A stretch of 64,000 nucleotides of DNA, taken from positions 29,562 to 93,561 of IMG/VR virus record IMGVR_UViG_3300019776_000165. One strand, written 5' to 3'. Below the pieces are notes generated by a model that was not told the origin of the DNA, did not search any database, and worked only from the letters and a program-made list of their open reading frames with translations. Positions within the stretch are counted from its first letter, which is position 1. The number at the start of each line of letters is the position of its first letter. Shown here in pieces: positions 29,556-52,293 of the stretch. The translations under genes and the position numbers were made by a program. Origin of the DNA: a virus.

Positions 29556-30182
29556 ATGACAATGCCAACTCTGCCTGCTAAGGGCGATAACAACTGGGAC
29601 GTTCCTCTAAACAACGTTCTTACATATTTGGACGAACGAATTAGTTCTGAACTAGTTGGCCCAACTGGCCCTGCAGGGGCTACTGGCCCTACTGGTGCTG
29701 ACAGCACAGTGCCTGGTCCAACAGGCTCCACTGGTCCTGCGGGAGCAACTGGGCCCACTGGTCCAGCGTGGTCTATTCCAGCCCCTGTGTCATTCAACCC
29801 TAACCTTACTGCTACTGGGCTGGTTATTAGCGCTGGTGGTCAAACTGGCCAGTATATTCAACTGGGTAAATTGGTTTCTTTCTGGATTACCATTGACTGC
29901 TCTTACATCACCAACTTTGGTACTGGACAGTGGATGTTTGACTTCCCAGTTACCCCTCTGCCAAGTACTATTCCGCACTTTGAGGGTGGGGCATACGATA
30001 CCTCTACTCATGCCGTTCTTCGTGGGGACACTACTTTGGGCGGAACTAAAATTGACGTTCACTACGTCAAAGCCGCTGGTCCTAACAGCGCTATTCAAGA
30101 AGCAACGTTCACTTCATTGGCACCATTAACGCTAGACACTAACGCTAAGGTGTACATGAACGGCACATACTTGGCGGCATAA
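29556..30182 (+). CDS. Collagen-like fibre protein
   Basis: A 208-residue protein. Residues 1-33 ('TLPAKGDNNWDVPLNNVLTYLDERI') are a conserved fibre-anchoring segment ('KGDNNWD-x-LN'). About 11 G-x-y triplets follow (residues 35-70), then a C-terminal beta domain (about 73-208) with 'GQYIQLGKLVSFWITIDCSYI'. A trimeric spike or short fibre is expected. GGAG lies six bases before the ATG. Confidence 0.78.
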   Translation: MTMPTLPAKGDNNWDVPLNNVLTYLDERISSELVGPTGPAGATGPTGADSTVPGPTGSTGPAGATGPTGPAWSIPAPVSFNPNLTATGLVISAGGQTGQYIQLGKLVSFWITIDCSYITNFGTGQWMFDFPVTPLPSTIPHFEGGAYDTSTHAVLRGDTTLGGTKIDVHYVKAAGPNSAIQEATFTSLAPLTLDTNAKVYMNGTYLAA

Positions 30183-30310
30183 TGCCTTTTAAGTCACTAG
30201 CCCAAATGCGACTCATGTACGCTAAGTACCCTGAGATGGCTAAAGAATGGGCATCTAAAACAACTAACATTAAGTCACTGCCACAAAAGGTGAAGAAAAA
30301 TGACAAGTAA
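30182..30310 (+). CDS. Conserved phage microprotein (MPFKSxxQMRxMYA family)
   Basis: A 42-residue protein in a TAATG overlap, reading MPFKSLAQMRLMYAKYPEMA, then 'KEWASKT', and ending 'LPQKVKK'. This matches a short conserved protein found in many phages and in some bacteria near phage genes, whose role is unknown. A helical, basic, possibly virion-associated peptide. Confidence 0.78.
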   Translation: MPFKSLAQMRLMYAKYPEMAKEWASKTTNIKSLPQKVKKNDK

Positions 30311-30473
30311 ACCTGTCTGGGACAAAAAGAATCCTAAGAAGAAACACAAGGACCTTACTGGTAAGCAAGAGTCTGCGGCCAAAGCACGTGCTAAAGCAGC
30401 GGGTCGCCCTTACCCAAACCTAGTTGACAACATGGCTGTGGCAAAGAAAGCGAAGAAAAATGGCAGCAAGTAA
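30300..30473 (+). CDS. Lys/Ala-rich conserved phage microprotein
   Basis: A 57-residue very basic protein starting 11 bases inside the previous gene. The segment 'AAKARAKAAGRPYPNLVDNMAV' (residues 26-47) is a conserved pattern in small phage proteins that accompany the MPFKS-type protein. Likely DNA- or RNA-binding by charge; function unknown. Confidence 0.72.
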   Translation: MTSKPVWDKKNPKKKHKDLTGKQESAAKARAKAAGRPYPNLVDNMAVAKKAKKNGSK

Positions 30474-30747
30474 AGACCCACGCCTTGCTCGTGCAGGCGT
30501 ATCAGGGTACAACCAACCAAAGCGAACACCAGACCACCCAACCAAGTCCCACATTGTTGTGGCTAAAGAGGGTGACCAGGTTAAGACCATTCGTTTTGGT
30601 CAGCAGGGTGTTTCAGGTTCTCCTAAGAAAAAGGGTGAGTCGGAGGCATACCGTGAGCGCCGTGAGTCGTTCCAGGCTCGTCACGCTAAGAACATTGCCA
30701 AGGGCAAGATGTCTGCCGCCTATTGGGCCAATAAGGTGAAGTGGTAA
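30460..30747 (+). CDS. Conserved phage protein (GYNxPKRTPxHPxKSH family)
   Basis: A 95-residue basic protein with very conserved-looking motifs: 'GYNQPKRTPDHPTKSHIVVAKEGD', 'KTIRFGQQGVSGSPKK' and 'ARHAKNIAKGKMSAAYWANKVKW' (segments at about 14-37, 40-55, 72-94). The same family is widespread in unrelated phages infecting marine and freshwater bacteria. It has no proven function; the beta strand and basic helix suggest nucleic-acid binding. Start ATG lies 14 bases inside the previous gene. Confidence 0.82.
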   Translation: MAASKDPRLARAGVSGYNQPKRTPDHPTKSHIVVAKEGDQVKTIRFGQQGVSGSPKKKGESEAYRERRESFQARHAKNIAKGKMSAAYWANKVKW

Positions 30748-31058
30748 TGAGTAAGAAAGTACCTGTAGGGACTAAGAAGAAGTTTGGTCCGTACAAAGGC
30801 TCTGAGGATAAGGGTGGCCGTCCCCTGTATGTCTATAAGACTAAGCAGGCTGACGGAACTTGGAAGACTACCTCTAAGAATAAGGCTCGTGCAGATTACG
30901 AGGCTAAGAACGGTAAACTTCCTAAGAACGTTGACGTTGACCACAAGGATAACAACCACAACAACGACAACGCTAAGAATTTGCGCCCACTAGCGCACGG
31001 CAAGAACACAGCAAAAGAAAACAAGCGACGTGCAGGTAAAAAGGAGAACGAGAAGTGA
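30747..31058 (+). CDS. HNH-like nuclease or HNH-derived DNA-binding protein
   Basis: A 103-residue Lys-rich protein in a TAATG overlap. The C-terminal half (about 58-95) carries an HNH core: 'VDVDHKDNNHNNDNAKNLRPL' (given as motif positions: D-H-K-D, N-x-x-N-D, N-L-R-P-L) followed by 'KNTAKENKRR'. That matches short HNH endonucleases in phages, which can be homing or packaging nucleases. The His and Asn residues are present. An ATGA/GTGA-type overlap joins it to the next gene. Confidence 0.78.
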   Translation: MSKKVPVGTKKKFGPYKGSEDKGGRPLYVYKTKQADGTWKTTSKNKARADYEAKNGKLPKNVDVDHKDNNHNNDNAKNLRPLAHGKNTAKENKRRAGKKENEK

Positions 31059-31249
31059 AGTGGCCAACTCGTTTAAAACCAGCACCAGTACCATTTCCTA
31101 ACGGAGGAGGCATACAAGCCATGGCAACAAAGACTACTAAGATTAAAAATCTTGAGCACCAGAAAATTGACCTTGAGGCTCAGATTGCTCATGCTAAAGT
31201 AGACCAGAAACACAAACCAAAACCAGCCACCAAGAAAGCAGGCAAATAA
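31055..31249 (+). CDS. Small basic hypothetical protein
   Basis: A 64-residue protein from a GTG start with AAGGAG eight bases upstream. An internal ATG at 31121 after GGAGGAGG would give a 42-residue Lys-rich helix; both products are possible. The first 22 residues hold 'VPFPNGGG', unlike the charged remainder. Function unknown. Confidence 0.6.
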   Translation: MKWPTRLKPAPVPFPNGGGIQAMATKTTKIKNLEHQKIDLEAQIAHAKVDQKHKPKPATKKAGK

Positions 31250-31302
31250 TGTGCAACGGAAACTGCACCTGCGGTAAGGACAAGGAGCCAACTAATGGCT
31301 AA
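31249..31302 (+). CDS. 17-residue Cys-rich microprotein
   Basis: Reading MCNGNCTCGKDKEPTNG, this frame begins in a TAATG overlap with the previous gene and overlaps the next frame by eight bases. Three Cys in C-x3-C-x-C could bind a metal together with the next peptide. Only a weak upstream AGCAGG is seen. It is supported by its tight fit in a chain of overlapping frames, not by size. Confidence 0.4.
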   Translation: MCNGNCTCGKDKEPTNG

Positions 31303-31360
31303 GTGTTCATGCGGCAAATGCGCTCAGTGTAAAGCAAAAATGAAGAAGGGCAAGAAGTAA
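31295..31360 (+). CDS. 21-residue Cys/Lys-rich microprotein
   Basis: Reads MAKCSCGKCAQCKAKMKKGK and one more Lys; four Cys in C-x-C-x2-C-x2-C, like a metallothionein fragment, then a Lys tail. AAGGAG lies eight bases before the ATG, a good ribosome binding site. Its stop overlaps the next ATG (TAATG). Metal binding is inferred from Cys spacing. Confidence 0.55.
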   Translation: MAKCSCGKCAQCKAKMKKGKK

Positions 31361-31644
31361 TGGCGGGAAAACCAGCATTCCTAAAGGGTAAGTACACCGA
31401 GGAAAAAGACAAGAAGAAGGACGCCAAGATGACTAAGGGCTTGAGCCCTAAGGAGAAGGCGGAGTTCGAGAAGAAGGACAAGGCTCACGGCGAGAAGAAG
31501 AAGCCGAAGACCATGGCCGAGGACAAGAAGATTGATGCCAAGATTATCAAGGGCATTAAGAAGCATTCTGCTCATGAGAAGCGTGAGGGTAAAGCAGGCG
31601 AGAAGCGTGAAGACGCTCATGAGAAAAAGACAGGAAAGAAGTAA
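31360..31644 (+). CDS. Lys/Glu-rich hypothetical protein
   Basis: A 94-residue protein with roughly one third Lys and much Glu/Asp/His, so either a single long charged helix or disordered. Motif 'GLSPKEKAEFEKKDKAH' (residues 26-42) recurs weakly near the end. It lies in the TAATG-linked microprotein chain. Function unknown. Confidence 0.65.
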   Translation: MAGKPAFLKGKYTEEKDKKKDAKMTKGLSPKEKAEFEKKDKAHGEKKKPKTMAEDKKIDAKIIKGIKKHSAHEKREGKAGEKREDAHEKKTGKK

Positions 31645-32000
31645 TGGCTGCACAACCAAAGAAGGTAACTAGTACACCTACTAGCCGAAGAATCGGCAAG
31701 GTTCTGGCCAGCGGAACTTACCCTGCTGGTAGCCCTCAGGCAGGGAAAAAGATTGGTCCAGTAGGAAAAGTAATGGGAAAGTTGGCTGCTAAAGCCTCTG
31801 TTTCTATTGCTAACGAGACTGCTAAGACCACCCGAAAGTCCCAAGCCGACCAGGCTGCTAAGAAGCAGGCTCGCAGTGCTGCGTACCCTAAGGGCACTGG
31901 AACTTCTCGCCTTAGCGAGCCTCCTCTAACTAAGGCTAAGGACTACACCAAAGCCCTAAAGAAGAATGGCGGCAACCCGCTTCCTCCTAAGGGAAGATAA
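31644..32000 (+). CDS. Basic hypothetical protein
   Basis: A 118-residue protein rich in Lys, Ala, Thr, Pro, without hydrophobic core. Last member of the basic microprotein chain, and followed by a strong terminator. DNA condensation or virion-internal roles are possible; no motif supports a precise function. Confidence 0.68.
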   Translation: MAAQPKKVTSTPTSRRIGKVLASGTYPAGSPQAGKKIGPVGKVMGKLAAKASVSIANETAKTTRKSQADQAAKKQARSAAYPKGTGTSRLSEPPLTKAKDYTKALKKNGGNPLPPKGR

Positions 32001-32020: not shown

Positions 32021-32047
32021 AACCCCCAGCAATGGGGGTTTTTCTTT
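32021..32047 (+). terminator. Rho-independent terminator
   Basis: AACCCCC/GGGGGTT stem around AGCAAT, followed by TTTCTTT. It ends the basic microprotein operon before the tail genes. Confidence 0.9.
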
Positions 32048-42343: not shown

Positions 42344-44214
42344 CCGCTCCTGTAAACAAGACGCCAATCTCAGTTGACTACACCAGTCGTGATTTTTACT
42401 CTTTGCGTAATGACCTGATTGCTAGAGTGCAAGACAGGTTAAGAGACGACAAAGGAAACCCGATTTGGACGGGGGAAGACCCAGCAGACTTTGGTGTTGC
42501 TCTTATTGAGGCATTTGCGTATATGGGGGACGTGGTCAACTACTACATTGACCGAATTGCTAACGAAGCAAACATCTCTACCGCTACCCAACGTCAAAGT
42601 ATCTTAAACATTGCTAAAACTTACGGCTACTTCCCTACTGGATACCGAGCAGCAACAGTAGATGTGCAGTTTACTAACTTAGGGCTTGACACAATTACCA
42701 TCCCTGCTGGAACTCAAATCTATGCAGATGTCTCAGTAGCAGACACTATGCAGCAAGTCATTTACACCACACAAAGTGACTTGACTTTGCTAACAACTGA
42801 GTCGGGGACTATCACCTGCCTGCAGTACGAGGACATCTCGCAACGAACAGAAAACCAGTACCTAGATAAGGCTGGGGAGCGTGTTGGACCGTCAAACGGG
42901 CAACCTGAACAACAGTACACCTTGTCTGAGAATCAAGTTGTAGATAACTCCGTTAAAGTGTTTGTTAAAAATGGCGATGTCTACGAGGAGTGGAAGCATG
43001 TCACCCACTTAGTAGATTATGGGCCAAGTGACCTTGTGTTCACAACTACGACAGACGCTAATAACTTTGTGTGCGTAACTTTTGGTGACGGAGTGTCTGG
43101 TTACATTCCTCCTAAAGATTCTGAAATTCGTATTGTCTACTTTGTTGGCGGAGGAACTATCGGAAACGTAGCCATGGAAACTCCGTTTCAAATACTTAAG
43201 TTCCCTGTAGGAGTTTCTGAAGCGGAAAGTAATGCGCTGCTGGCGGCTATCGACACGGCTAACATTAAGAATCCTTATGCGTCAGCAATGGGTGGCGCTG
43301 AGCCTGAAGATAACGCTACTATCCGTCAAAACGCTCCAAAATTGCTTACCTCATTTAACCGAGCCATTACGCTTAAAGATTACGCTAATCTTGCTTTGGC
43401 AGTGGCATCTGTGGGAAAAGCAAACTCTCAATCAGACCTTTGGAGTTCTGTAAACCTATACATTGCTCCTCAAACCTCTAATGACCCATACCCTGGGTAC
43501 TCTACTACGGATTTAGATACAGACCCGTTATCGGAGGCTTTGCTTACACCTGGCTGGTTAACCTCTAAACAAGATGTGATTGATTACTTTGCTGATAAAA
43601 CTCAAATAGGTGTTTCTGTAACAGTTTTGCCGCCTAATTACACTCGCATTACTTTGAGCCTGCAATACACCGCAATTCCTGGTTATTCTGAAGAAAAAGT
43701 AACTGCCAACATTAAGGCCGCTTTATTCTCTACTTATTCGTACGCTAACTTGTCATTTGCAAACGTAATAACCCCAGAAGAAATTGAGGCTAACCTTAGG
43801 TTTGTAGACGGAGTTCTGAGCGTTCGAGTCATTTCGTTTAACCGCTTGGGCTCTACTGGACGAGTAACTTTAGTTGGAGAAGCAGACGAGATTTTTACGT
43901 TTGAAAATGCCAATGTTTCAGTCACAATGCTTTCTTCAGTTGCTTCTTTGAGCAATATTGCAAGCGGTGCTGGAACGATTACCCCTGCGTTCTCTAGTAC
44001 GTTCTATAACTACAACTTCACCACTTCTACTAGCACAACCACCTTGACGATTACTTCAGCCTCTGGAGGAACTATCTACGCAGATGGCGCTGAGCAAACT
44101 TCAGGAAGCCCATTTACGGTCAGCACTCCTACTGGAACAACTACTGTTCCAGTCATTGTGACTGCCGCTGATGGAATTGCTAAGAAGACGTACACGGTGA
44201 CCTTCACCCACTAA
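42340..44214 (+). CDS. Baseplate J-like protein with C-terminal cadherin-like domain
   Basis: A 624-residue wedge protein. The N-terminus '[19 protein letters not shown]', '[41 protein letters not shown]' (about 48-88) and '[13 protein letters not shown]...[10 protein letters not shown]' are typical of the gpJ/gp6 family. '[14 protein letters not shown]' and '[16 protein letters not shown]' follow. The last 95 residues ('[22 protein letters not shown]...[19 protein letters not shown]') are a cadherin-like beta-sandwich, as on many bacterial surface proteins. That extra domain may touch the cell surface. Confidence 0.92.
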
Positions 44215-45074
44215 TGAACAACAACTACTCTAGCCCTAATCGATACTACGGAGTTTATCGTGGTGTCGTGGTTGATAGCGCAGACCCTACTGGCGCTGGG
44301 CGGCTTAGAGTTAAAGTTCCTCAAATTCTAGGTAGTCAAACTACTGAGTGGATTTGGCCAAAAGAAACTAGCGCTCTACGCACTTCTTCCCCAGTTAATG
44401 GACAAGGTGTGTGGGTTCAGTTTGAAGGAGGCGACCCTGCGTACCCTGTTTGGATTGGTACTTTTGGTAAGCATAAAACAGCAGATAAGTACATCTACGT
44501 TTCACCGCTACCTAGCAGTACCTCTTTAAGTGGTATCTCTGACTACATTAAGACTAAAACGTTTAAAGACGGCTCAACCGATGTAGACCTAACCTCCTCC
44601 CTAGTGGCAATGGCTCAAGGAATTGCTACAGGAAGCGGCGTTGCAGGACCAACAGGGCCTATTGGCCCTACAGGGTCAACTGGACCTACTGGAGCCACAG
44701 GTGCTACAGGGGCCACTGGTGCAACTGGTGCTGTCGGCCCTACTGGAGCAACGGGTGCAGTGGGGCCTACGGGCCCAACTGGTACTAGTGGACTTGATGG
44801 GGCGACTGGAGCAACTGGACCTACTGGAGCCTTGGGCCCTACAGGTCCAACTGGTGCTGATGGAGTTTACGCCTATACGTTCAGCCCTACTGCTCCTACA
44901 TCCCCTGTTCAAGGAGAGAGATGGAGAGACTCCGACACTGGAATCGAGTACACATGGTTCAGTGATGGGGACTCAGGGCAGTGGGTGGAAACCGCTCAAA
45001 ATGGTATTTATGGACCTACTGGGCCAGCAGGAACAGTTGGCCTAGAGGCCTTGTTCCTAATGATGGGCGCTTAA
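44214..45074 (+). CDS. Baseplate spike: gp5-like OB domain fused to collagen-like stalk
   Basis: A 286-residue protein. Residues 8-88 are the gp5/VgrG-type OB fold: '[30 protein letters not shown]', '[20 protein letters not shown]'. Instead of a beta-helical needle, residues 142-220 hold about 25 G-x-y triplets, mainly G-P-T and G-A-T. The end ('[34 protein letters not shown]') matches the module in the fibre at 22871. The final '[10 protein letters not shown]' matches the short protein at 24556. No lysozyme domain is present. Confidence 0.85.
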
Positions 45075-48320: not shown

Positions 48321-48590
48321 ATGGATACTTTTGGACTAATACTTGTTGCTGGTTTTTCTCTCGCTTACGTTGTCGAGTTGTCAGGTGCCCTCTTGCGCCC
48401 TTTCAGAAGCGACAAAATTTTTAAGCACATCATCACTCCCCCGTTGGCTTTTGTGGCCTGTTTGTACCTTGATTTTACGGGGTTCACTTTAATTGTTGCG
48501 GCGTTGGCTGCTTCTTTTGTCTCTACCTCTTTACGAGTGCTTTTGGATGCTGTAACATCTAAGCCTGTCGTGATTCCACGACGTATGTAA
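48321..48590 (+). CDS. Small membrane protein
   Basis: An 89-residue protein with three hydrophobic segments (about 4-24, 36-52, 55-72) and a basic C-terminus. It lies between the baseplate operon and the replication operon. 'AGATATCCTT' precedes the ATG, so the ribosome binding site is poor. An inner-membrane protein of unknown function; it might act in lysis or host takeover. Confidence 0.72.
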   Translation: MDTFGLILVAGFSLAYVVELSGALLRPFRSDKIFKHIITPPLAFVACLYLDFTGFTLIVAALAASFVSTSLRVLLDAVTSKPVVIPRRM

Positions 48591-48599
48591 GGAGGGAAT

Positions 48600-49580
48600 G
48601 TGGGGCATTCTGAAGAGTTGCGACTGTTGTCGTTGACTCCTGCTGAGTTACGCCTGCTTTTGGCGCTTCGTCATCTTCAAAACCGTTGGCATGAGGTCAA
48701 TGCGTCTATGGATGAATTAACTACTTTGACTGGGTATAGTCGCACTACTTTGTGGCGTGCTCATGCTGGGTTGGAGGCTGCTGGCTTCATTGAGGCTACC
48801 CGCACTAAACGAAATTTTGGCTTCTACGCTAAGAACCGTTATGTGCTTAAATCTGGTTCCGTGGATGAAACATCCCTTGTTTCTGCATGTTCCACGGATG
48901 AAACATCAACAGACAATATAGATATACAGATAATTACTACTACTTCTACTTTTAGTAATAAATCAATAGAAGCAATAAACACTTCGTGTTTATTGGGTGC
49001 CGCAGGCACCGAGGAGGGAAAGAAGGAAAACATGGTTAATCGTTGGTCGGAAGATGACGACAACGTTGGTGGGTTTGGTTTGCTGGAGGGCGAGGTTCCC
49101 TCGACTCAGAAGCAGAAGCCTATGAGCAAGCGTGACCCAAAGACTAGGCACATGCGTCCTCAGGATGAATGGACTGCTGCGGATGTGGCTTCAGAGTTTT
49201 CGTTCAGGGTGTACTCAAAGATTCGTGGTATCCCTGGGTTGGTGAACACGGCTTCTCTTCGTGGGGCTTTGGCTGGTAACCGTTCTAAGTTTGGGATTAC
49301 TGCGGTTATCGAGATGGAGGTCATGGAGCGGTTCTTTGCGGACGAACGTAACTTGAACACAATCCGCAAGTTTCCTACCAGTGCCGTGGGTATGTTCTTG
49401 CGGGCTATCACCACGAACGTTCAGCAGGTTGTGGAAGATTTGGGCATGGAAGACGCACCTGTTGTTGACGAAACTCCTGTGGCAAGTTATGTTTATGCTT
49501 CAGACGGTAAAGCGTTTGACAACTCCATGCCAGGACGTAAGTCTTTGGAGCGTTATGAAGAGAAACTAGGAAGGGCATAA
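48600..49580 (+). CDS. Helix-turn-helix replication initiator-like protein
   Basis: A 326-residue protein with GTG start and GGAGGG just upstream. Residues 10-80 form a winged HTH: 'LTPAELRLLLALRHLQNRW', 'ASMDELTTLTGYSRTTLWRAHAGLEAAGFIEATR' (about 37-70). After a Ser/Thr-rich low-complexity linker (85-140), the C-terminal part reads 'TAADVASEFSFRVYSKIRGIPG', like the loader-interacting part of replication proteins. It is followed with a one-base overlap by a DnaC-like ATPase, a standard initiator-loader pair. The linker DNA holds repeats and hairpins (see the origin entry); an internal start at 49032 is possible. Confidence 0.75.
   Translation: MGHSEELRLLSLTPAELRLLLALRHLQNRWHEVNASMDELTTLTGYSRTTLWRAHAGLEAAGFIEATRTKRNFGFYAKNRYVLKSGSVDETSLVSACSTDETSTDNIDIQIITTTSTFSNKSIEAINTSCLLGAAGTEEGKKENMVNRWSEDDDNVGGFGLLEGEVPSTQKQKPMSKRDPKTRHMRPQDEWTAADVASEFSFRVYSKIRGIPGLVNTASLRGALAGNRSKFGITAVIEMEVMERFFADERNLNTIRKFPTSAVGMFLRAITTNVQQVVEDLGMEDAPVVDETPVASYVYASDGKAFDNSMPGRKSLERYEEKLGRA
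48856..49010 (+). other. Candidate replication origin inside the initiator gene
   Basis: Two 19-base direct repeats, GTTCCGTGGATGAAACATC (48856-48874) and GTTCCACGGATGAAACATC (48889-48907), differ at two positions and lie 33 bases, three helical turns, apart. Each contains an inverted GATG-AAA-CATC. An AT-rich stretch of about 70 bases follows (48908-48980). Then come a perfect 9-bp hairpin AATAAACAC-TTC-GTGTTTATT (48974-48994) and a 6-bp GGTGCC-GCA-GGCACC hairpin (48996-49010). Iterons plus an AT-rich unwinding zone in the initiator gene mirror the lambda O arrangement. Origin function is inference. Confidence 0.45.
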
Positions 49581-50308
49581 TGTACGACATCGCAAGGCTA
49601 CCCTCGCTCAAGAGGTATTGGCTGTTCCGCAACAGCAACATTCCACGCAGGTTCTTGGGGCTAGAGCCAGCCGACATTGAGAAGAAGATGGGCTCGTTCC
49701 CATCTCAAATCAACGACTGGCTGGAAGAGGTCATGGACGGTCAGGTCATCAAGAAGATTGGCGGTCTAGGAACCACTGGTGTTGGCCTGTTGTTTGACGG
49801 TGCACCTGGGCTAGGTAAGACCACCCACGCCGTAACCTCAGCCATGGAACTGGTCAAGCGACTACCCGACGGTGACGCTGAGATGGCTAAGATTCTTGGC
49901 TACAGCACCGATGACTTTGGTCGCTACGCCCACAACTTGCGCCCAATCTACTACATGACTTTCCCAGAGTTCTTGTCTCGCAAGAAGGCTTTGATTGACG
50001 CAGACCCTGAGACTAAGCGTGACCTGTACCTTGAGATGGAAGGCTTCCACGGCCGTGCCAAGGACGACTCGTTGAACGTTCGCATCCTTGTGCTAGACGA
50101 CTTGGGCAAGGAGTACGGCTCAAAGTATGACGACACTTCGTTTGACGAGGTTCTTCGCTCACGCTACGACAAGGCTCTACCCACTATCATCACTACCAAC
50201 GTACGCCGTGAGAACTGGGCTAAGCAGTATGGGGAGGCTATGGGAAGTTTTGCTTTCGAAGCGTTCCACCGAGTTGCTATCCTAGGTAAGGACCTACGCA
50301 AAGAATGA
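49580..50308 (+). CDS. DnaC/IstB-like helicase loader ATPase
   Basis: A 242-residue AAA+ ATPase that would load the replicative helicase. Walker A is 'DGAPGLGKTTH' (about residue 75), Walker B 'ILVLDDLGKEYG' (about 170). Sensor-1-like 'TIITTNVRRENW' (about 205) precedes 'FHRVAIL'. The N-terminal 65 residues should bind the helicase or initiator. It starts in a TAATG overlap with the initiator gene and ends in an ATGA overlap with the SWIM gene. Confidence 0.9.
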   Translation: MYDIARLPSLKRYWLFRNSNIPRRFLGLEPADIEKKMGSFPSQINDWLEEVMDGQVIKKIGGLGTTGVGLLFDGAPGLGKTTHAVTSAMELVKRLPDGDAEMAKILGYSTDDFGRYAHNLRPIYYMTFPEFLSRKKALIDADPETKRDLYLEMEGFHGRAKDDSLNVRILVLDDLGKEYGSKYDDTSFDEVLRSRYDKALPTIITTNVRRENWAKQYGEAMGSFAFEAFHRVAILGKDLRKE

Positions 50309-51048: not shown

Positions 51049-52293
51049 ATGGCATTAGATAACGAGCATCGGTTACTCAGCAAAGTTGTACGTGACCGTG
51101 TAATCATTCCTGTTATTGAGCAGGGAATCAAAGACGACTGGTTTGTAGATGACGACCTTCGTGCAGTGTGGAAGTTTGTGCGTGAGCACTACTCCAACTA
51201 CCGTGTAGTCCCTACCGTTGAAACCGTTATGGACAACTTCCCTAACTTGAAGTTGTACAACGTTGAAGAATCTATCGACTACTTGATTGACACCATGGTC
51301 AAGTTCCGTAGGAACATGCTGACCAGAAACGGTCTTCAAGATGTAATGCTCCGTATGAGCGCCAACGACCACGAGGCTGCTCTCAACGAAATGAGCAAGG
51401 TCGTATCGATAGTCAACGCTCAAGGCGTGGTCGGCACTACCCACTTGGACTTGACCACAGACCCAGACGCTCGTTATGACGAGTACGAAAACATCCAGAA
51501 CCACAAACTCTTAGGAATCCCTACAGGGTTTGAGCAGATTGATGAAGCGACCGCTGGTCTGCAGGGCGGACAGTTGATTACTGTTATTGCCCCACCAAAA
51601 ACTGGTAAGTCGCAGATTGCTTTGCGTATCGCCAACAACGTGCACAAGGCTGGTTACGTCCCTCTGTTCCAGTCGTTCGAGATGAACAACCACGAGCAGG
51701 CCCAGCGTTCAGACGCTATGCGTGCCCACATCTCCTCCACTCGACTTCGCCGTGGCGCTCTTAGCACTGCCGAAGAAGTTCGCTACACCAAGATGCTGGG
51801 AGAGATGAAAACCGAGAAGCCATTCCACCTTGTGGACGCAGTTAACGGTCTAACCATTGACTCGCTGGTTGCTAAGTGTGAGCAGTTGACCCCAGACATT
51901 CTGTTTGTTGACGGTGTGTACCTAATGCTTGACCAGGTCACTGGTGAGGCTAACACCCCACAGGCTTTGACCAACATCACTCGTGGGTTGAAGCGTGTTG
52001 CCCAGAAGTTGAACATCCCCGTAATCATCACCACTCAGACCCTGCTGTGGAAGATGAAAGGCGGTAAGGTTTCGGCTGACTCTATCGGTTACTCCTCCTC
52101 GTTCTTCCAAGACTCAGACGTAATCCTTGGTCTAGAGCCAGTAGAAGACAACGACTTAGTTCGTCTGCTAAAGATTGTTCAGTCACGAAACTGCCCACCG
52201 TCTACTACCTCCATTACTTGGAACTGGGACACTGGTTGTTTCCACGACGAGAACAGCCCCTGCAAGTACTGTGGAACTGGTGCGTACCTATGA
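51049..52293 (+). CDS. DnaB-like replicative helicase
   Basis: A 414-residue protein, AGGAGAAGG upstream. The N-terminal 140 residues are helical, as in DnaB. The RecA-like domain begins 'LLGIPTGFEQIDEATAGLQGG' (about 152); Walker A is 'APPKTGKSQIAL' (about 182), then 'FQSFEMNN'. Walker B is 'ILFVDGVYLML' (about 284), with 'VIITTQ' and a final 'LLKIVQSRN'. Walker A has APPKTGKS rather than the usual A/G-rich loop. An unusual Cys-rich end, 'CFHDENSPCKYCGTGAYL', could bind zinc. It would unwind the fork with the primase encoded next. Confidence 0.9.
   Translation: MALDNEHRLLSKVVRDRVIIPVIEQGIKDDWFVDDDLRAVWKFVREHYSNYRVVPTVETVMDNFPNLKLYNVEESIDYLIDTMVKFRRNMLTRNGLQDVMLRMSANDHEAALNEMSKVVSIVNAQGVVGTTHLDLTTDPDARYDEYENIQNHKLLGIPTGFEQIDEATAGLQGGQLITVIAPPKTGKSQIALRIANNVHKAGYVPLFQSFEMNNHEQAQRSDAMRAHISSTRLRRGALSTAEEVRYTKMLGEMKTEKPFHLVDAVNGLTIDSLVAKCEQLTPDILFVDGVYLMLDQVTGEANTPQALTNITRGLKRVAQKLNIPVIITTQTLLWKMKGGKVSADSIGYSSSFFQDSDVILGLEPVEDNDLVRLLKIVQSRNCPPSTTSITWNWDTGCFHDENSPCKYCGTGAYL

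Follow-up and report, generated by a model that had tools for sequence, protein, structure and literature searches.

Where a phage begins to copy its genome, and whether that site can lie inside the gene for its own initiator, is the question raised by one gene in a 64,000-nucleotide stretch of viral DNA (the window), which forms the final 64 kb of a virus record 93,561 bases long. A preliminary description of the window had pointed to repeats, AT-rich DNA, and hairpins within this initiator-like gene and proposed a replication origin of the lambda type. According to the comparison presented here, the segment is very probably a theta-type phage origin that, like the one in lambda O, is embedded in the initiator gene, here in the part encoding the linker, since dozens of distant relatives keep its layout despite a differing linker protein or a split gene.

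Gene neighborhood and initiator protein

The locus is a phage replication module, with the gene order initiator, DnaC-like loader, DnaB, and primase; an SNF2-type helicase is also encoded downstream. The genes relevant here are:

48600-49580, + strand: initiator gene, 326 aa, GTG start (HTH_36, PHROG matches, AlphaFold2)
49580-50308, + strand: DnaC-like helicase loader (phrog_50, E=5e-20)
51049-52293, + strand: DnaB-like replicative helicase (PF03796, E=7e-30)

A probable membrane protein of 89 aa is encoded directly 5' of the initiator (48321-48590, + strand).

The initiator consists of a winged HTH (wHTH, approximately aa 1-85), a disordered linker (approximately aa 87-161), and a helical C-terminal domain (CTD). 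It matches HTH_36 in Pfam (E=1.2e-5) as well as phrog_270, phrog_186, and phrog_678, which are replication initiation or O-like families; the alignment with the O-like phrog_678 (E=8e-5) is confined to the HTH. The lambda-O family was not among the Pfam hits at E<=1, and the CTD remained unmatched. AlphaFold2 predicted the wHTH and the helical CTD with confidence, while the linker stayed below a pLDDT of 50. For the CTD, we found no Pfam relative and no PDB relative by sequence or by fold, and a fold search of BFVD returned one clear match, A0A6J5KQG4, an uncultured-phage protein of the same type.

Elements within the linker DNA

48856-48874, + strand: iteron 1, GTTCCGTGGATGAAACATC, left half-site degenerate
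48889-48907, + strand: iteron 2, (T)GTTCCACGGATGAAACATC, interpreted as the TGTTTCA-N4-TGAAACA dyad of the relatives
48905-48912, + strand: near-invariant box ATCAACAG, overlapping the end of the last iteron (conservation, codons)
48913-48972, no strand: candidate DNA unwinding element, an AT-rich tract with many ACT/AGT triplets
48973-48995, - strand: hairpin 1, CAATAAACAC-TTC-GTGTTTATTG, with a C(GAA)G triloop on the bottom strand
48996-49010, no strand: hairpin 2, GGTGCC-GCA-GGCACC, GC-rich stem and unconstrained loop
49023-49034, + strand: Shine-Dalgarno AAGGA and ATG start of a probable product without the HTH
49032-49580, + strand: CTD reading frame, which some relatives carry as a free-standing gene

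The iterons thus lie inside the initiator coding sequence with the AT-rich tract adjoining, as in a lambda-type origin. The two repeats reported earlier were confirmed as GTTCCGTGGATGAAACATC (48856-48874) and GTTCCACGGATGAAACATC (48889-48907), identical at 17 of 19 positions and spaced 33 nt start to start; these two iterons are the only TGAAACATC sites across the whole 93.6-kb record, and an 18-mer pair of such similarity arises in approximately 1% of synonymous recodings of the linker. The AT-rich stretch of about 70 bases holds up as well, the 70-mer at 48915-48984 (78.6% AT) being the maximum of both window and record. Likewise, the two consecutive perfect hairpins are present at 48973-48995 and 48996-49010, and hairpin 1, with perfect 10-bp arms, is the longest perfect short-loop hairpin of the whole record. 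Three record-wide extremes (iteron sites, AT 70-mer, and hairpin 1) are clustered within about 140 bases. The DNA fold of 48856-49032 gave z = -4.9 against shuffles. The cumulative GC skew, expected to reach a minimum at the segment, was computed and has no minimum there; it is uninformative and lends the origin no support.

Relatives among uncultured phages

Searching viral contigs and named phages directly with the initiator gave no match. The protein being too divergent for this approach, relatives were reached through DnaB instead, which yielded 80 syntenic viral contigs, approximately 65 of them with an initiator just 5' of the loader. From these, 38 non-redundant initiator genes (<80% identity) were taken as the comparison set; with 37-53% identity, they represent a large family of uncultured phages. 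When the CTD was later used as the query, 80 more loci were obtained, overlapping the DnaB-found set, and in addition one contig within a Microbacteriaceae MAG, which weakly points to an actinobacterial host. The Streptomyces phages BRock and GiJojo have the loader and DnaB in common with the locus and carry several small genes 5' of the loader; in the stretch annotated, none is an obvious homologue of the initiator.

Within the relatives, the common order inside the gene is wHTH, phage-specific iterons, an (A/G)TCAACAG box, AT-rich tract, hairpin 1, GC-rich hairpin 2, Shine-Dalgarno with in-frame start, and CTD. The linker peptide varies while this DNA layout is constant, with single elements missing in some relatives, e.g., hairpin 1 in 8/38. 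When the pattern TCAACAGCTG-N(38-68)-AATACTWCGTATT was sought in 2.9 million viral contigs, ignoring gene annotation, it was found in 37 contigs, in all cases inside an initiator gene. In the L144, L179, L189, and L005/L003/L006/L002 groups, hairpin 1 is missing and the iterons are present, in most cases together with the box and AT tract. In place of hairpin 1, members of the L005-type group show a dyad around the Shine-Dalgarno.

Selection at the nucleic-acid level

The preliminary description had suggested that the linker peptide is unconstrained and that DNA conservation in relatives should exceed codon constraint, and both expectations were borne out: the peptide is predicted to be disordered and differs among relatives while the DNA plan persists, and synonymous conservation peaks exactly across the segment. 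As a measure, we used the share of pairs of relatives with a common amino acid that also use the same codon. This same-codon fraction was 0.34 against an expected 0.32 in the HTH and 0.44 against 0.36 in the CTD. It rose to 0.64 over the iterons, where 0.41 was expected, to 0.77 over the box and AT tract (expected 0.32), and to 0.65 over the hairpins (expected 0.31). Furthermore, every linker was compared with 300 synonymous recodings, or with 100 where repeats were measured. In 87% of the genes, the longest hairpin exceeded 95% of the recodings; the two best hairpins jointly did so in 89% and the repeated 18-mer in 55%. For 68% of the relatives, the tract was richer in AT than expected from synonymous recoding (p<0.05). 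Within the tract, serine is encoded by AGT in 40/50 cases compared with 144/890 gene-wide and threonine mostly by ACT, a combined bias exceeding simple AT preference.

The internal start at 49032, with AAGGA 4 nt 5' of the ATG, was also found to be conserved. Requiring five or more Shine-Dalgarno nucleotides and an in-frame start at suitable spacing, it is kept in 34/38 relatives, compared with 13.8 expected from recoding.

Hairpin 1 occurs in 30/38 genes and in 10/10 further hand-picked loci, including six split ones. Its stem varies with compensatory changes and its loop is fixed: all 40 hairpin-1 sequences, out of 48 loci examined, read C(TNC)G on the top strand, equivalent to C(GNA)G on the bottom strand, with the loops GAA, GTA, and GGA (N being A, T, or G). 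Hairpin 2 is represented by 36 distinct versions with compensatory changes, GC-rich stems, and a free loop, and may act in DNA or RNA. It does not resemble an intrinsic terminator, as no T-run follows it on the + strand.

Iterons, box, and their match to the HTH

The inner GATG-AAA-CATC dyad described for the repeats is present in the window, but the dyad conserved in relatives is TGTTTCA-N4-TGAAACA instead; read against the half-sites of the relatives, the window iterons appear to be degenerate copies of the latter. In 28/38 relatives, at least 5 of 6 symmetric dyad positions are retained in the last iteron, compared with 12% of random windows. Repetition itself is less general than the window with its two copies suggested, with many relatives showing just one recognizable full copy: by simple mismatch count, a second full iteron is found in 21/38 and none is recognizable in 17/38.

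Directly after the last iteron follows the (A/G)TCAACAG box, often succeeded by CTGA. Among the 38 non-redundant relatives, its columns mostly carry 1.2-2.0 bits (0.9 for the last G), with same-codon fractions of 0.81-0.95. A sigma-70 promoter on TCAACA was considered and rejected, with no consistent -10 across relatives and one 9/12 match in the window.

The iteron sequence differs from phage to phage, and so does the recognition helix. With half-sites defined as the bases before the box, helices of the type SRTTLWRD pair with TGAAAC, SEESxRRxLR and S(S/T)ESLRRAFR with GTGGG, SRE(T/S)xRxAxR with TTGGC or CTGGC, SRMQISRA with GTTAC, SRSSVHRA with GACAC, GRTSLSKA with GAAC (L021), and KREALRRA with GAGGC. 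A Mantel test of helix versus half-site on 32 genes gave r=0.67 (p=0.0005), and partial tests still gave 0.63 when CTD similarity was controlled for and 0.57 when the N-terminal HTH part was (p=0.0005 in both), with p being approximate, as the permutation treats related genes as exchangeable, against which the partial tests and module swaps partly guard. Such swaps are evident where HTH and half-site stay paired while CTDs recombine, as in L063/L074 (HTH 0.89, half-site 0.86, CTD 0.41). The wing RTKRN of the HTH is near-invariant, like the box. The matched pairs of recognition helix and half-site are usable for reading winged-helix specificity.

Split genes and CTD-only relatives

Six contigs (L073/L170, L157, L161, L172, L182, and L186) have an HTH frame that stops before the linker. 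Read in all frames, the linker of L073 contains several stops, and it keeps ACATCAACAGC, the AT tract, both hairpins, the Shine-Dalgarno, and the ATG; the other split contigs keep the same elements, with a tract of 77-84% AT and hairpin 1 arms of 11-14 bp. Being kept in non-coding linkers, these elements act as DNA or RNA and not as peptide.

A different arrangement is seen in L019, L030, L168, L176, L177, and L188 (some of which are the same contig), where the CTD is free-standing with its own Shine-Dalgarno. In these CTD-only relatives, HTH, iterons, box, and hairpins are absent together, and neither HTH nor origin elements were found elsewhere in the 90.7-kb record behind L168. HTH and cis elements are gained or lost as one module. 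Coding versus split linkers, and modules kept versus lost, together amount to a natural experiment separating DNA from protein function. Considering the conserved internal start together with the free-standing CTD genes, a second, HTH-less product from 49032 is likely.

As further observations on this group, L168, L176, L177, and L188 retain the CTD, and the loader and DnaB where checked, without the HTH/origin module; a gene similar to that of the 89-aa probable membrane protein precedes the free-standing CTD gene, and the CTD-only genome checked has a lower GC content of about 39-43%.

Alternative explanations

An effect of the hairpins on the message has to be considered, in which hairpins 1 and 2 shape the mRNA at the internal Shine-Dalgarno and thereby determine how much full-length relative to CTD-only product is made. 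In most relatives the Shine-Dalgarno follows soon after hairpin 2, whose free loop and GC-rich stem would suit such a role, and the internal start is conserved. CTD-only phages, however, keep the Shine-Dalgarno of the CTD while losing the hairpins along with the HTH, the invariant closing pair and GNA loop of hairpin 1 fit DNA rules, and Rfam contained no RNA family match for the segment. We consider this explanation unlikely, but it could be partly true for hairpin 2. Regulation could also act on the DNA. wHTH proteins often autoregulate, and the site lies 5' of the CTD, loader, and helicase genes, as would be suitable for an operator at which the HTH protein binds repeats in its own gene and controls the downstream replication operon, the hairpins acting in the mRNA. 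This leaves the constrained AT tract and the bottom-strand-specific C(GNA)G loop unexplained, and the relatives share no conspicuous -10 hexamer at a distance of 16-18 nt from TCAACA, making an operator improbable as the explanation of the segment; operator and origin functions can coexist, and the same sites may serve to regulate the operon as well.

It is similarly improbable that the origin is driven by the host, with the ACT/AGT-rich tract serving as a DnaA-trio run melted by host DnaA. The DnaA-trio reads 3'-(G/A)AT-5' (PMC10797057), and CTA and TAG triplets are indeed in excess in the tract (118 observed versus 80 expected with AT-ending codons). This excess is confined to coding members and absent from the AT tract of the split non-coding clade, and there is no DnaA box near the site. 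Given the tract of the split clade, the triplets may be merely AT-rich codons that avoid stops. A mere coincidence of a low-complexity Ser/Thr linker with AT-rich codons would fit the predicted disorder of the peptide, but its probability is close to nil, as it is contradicted by codon constraint, recoding tests, and the covariation of both HTH and hairpins, and refuted by the conserved non-coding linkers.

Proposed mechanism and comparison with known systems

The in-gene origin of the lambda type is thus supported by shared layout, codon constraint, covariation of helix and half-site, and survival in non-coding linkers. From these comparative sequence data we infer origin function, together with HTH binding, melting, helicase loading, and priming. 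In the proposed sequence of events, the initiator would bind the iterons via its N-terminal wHTH, with the recognition helix on the variable half-sites and, as our own suggestion, the near-invariant wing RTKRN perhaps contacting ATCAACAG. Assembly of the initiator on negatively supercoiled DNA would open the adjoining AT-rich tract. Hairpin 1 might extrude under supercoiling, or form after opening of the tract, as a stable C(GNA)G mini-hairpin, and could mark or hold open the far end of the bubble, where CTD and DnaC-like loader would place DnaB. A contact of CTD and loader is a guess, as the CTD is without known relative. The second product from 49032 would supply the CTD without DNA binding.

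In lambda, the helicase-loader gene P lies directly downstream of O. The lambda origin is located in the middle of gene O and consists of 19-bp imperfect inverted-repeat iterons beside an AT-rich tract (PMC7466680). The origin of lambda and those of lambdoid Stx phages thus share with the present locus the position in mid-initiator, iterons of about 19 bp by an AT tract, an N-terminal HTH, and a loader gene next to the initiator. In contrast to lambda, the CTD is not recognizably related to any known domain (Pfam matches are to HTH families only), a near-invariant box follows the last iteron, a C(GNA)G hairpin and a second hairpin lie past the AT tract, an internal Shine-Dalgarno and start are conserved, and the loader is DnaC-like instead of lambda P. 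Relative to the lambda origin, the C(GNA)G hairpin 1 is a new feature.

For such a hairpin, the virion RNA polymerase promoters of phage N4 offer a parallel. There, a C-G-closed loop of 3 nt with G first and A last is needed for extrusion at physiological supercoiling, and a sheared G:A pair accounts for the stability of the C(GNA)G loop (PMC4496689). The triloop is shared and extrusion of hairpin 1 is conceivable by analogy; hairpin 1 differs in lying inside an initiator gene, where it borders the AT tract, and N4 stems are shorter (7 bp in P2). A hairpin on single-stranded DNA also loads DnaB-DnaC at the A-site of the ABC primosome (PMC6127211), a likeness as helicase-loading landmark that would apply here if the presumed loading role is correct, with the difference that the present stem is without a DnaA box. 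Long and short initiator forms have a precedent in TrfA-44/TrfA-33 of RK2 (PMC4980987), although in the present case it is the origin-binding HTH that would be missing from the short form.

Taking these parallels further, we tentatively propose, with somewhat less than even confidence, that a supercoil-extruded C(GNA)G hairpin is a built-in origin part bordering the unwinding tract. Supercoiling driven by gyrase would flip out this hairpin as a site for landing or priming by the helicase loader, beside a swappable HTH-plus-iteron cassette setting specificity. The locus provides a base-by-base candidate replication origin for a large family of uncultured phages and raises the testable question of whether origins use N4-type GNA-loop hairpins to couple supercoiling to helicase loading.

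Further observations in the window

Outside the replication module, a run of small, strongly lysine-rich ORFs (42-118 aa) occupies 30182-32000 (+ strand) and shows the strongest AT skew of the window (0.32); a terminator-like CCCCCAGCAATGGGGGTTTTTC follows near 32023. An HNH-like ORF of 105 aa is located at 30741-31058, with tiny Cys-rich ORFs near 31248-31360. Collagen-like GPTGATG repeats occur in two proteins, encoded at 44214-45074 and 29556-30182 (+ strand), one of them in the tail/baseplate region.
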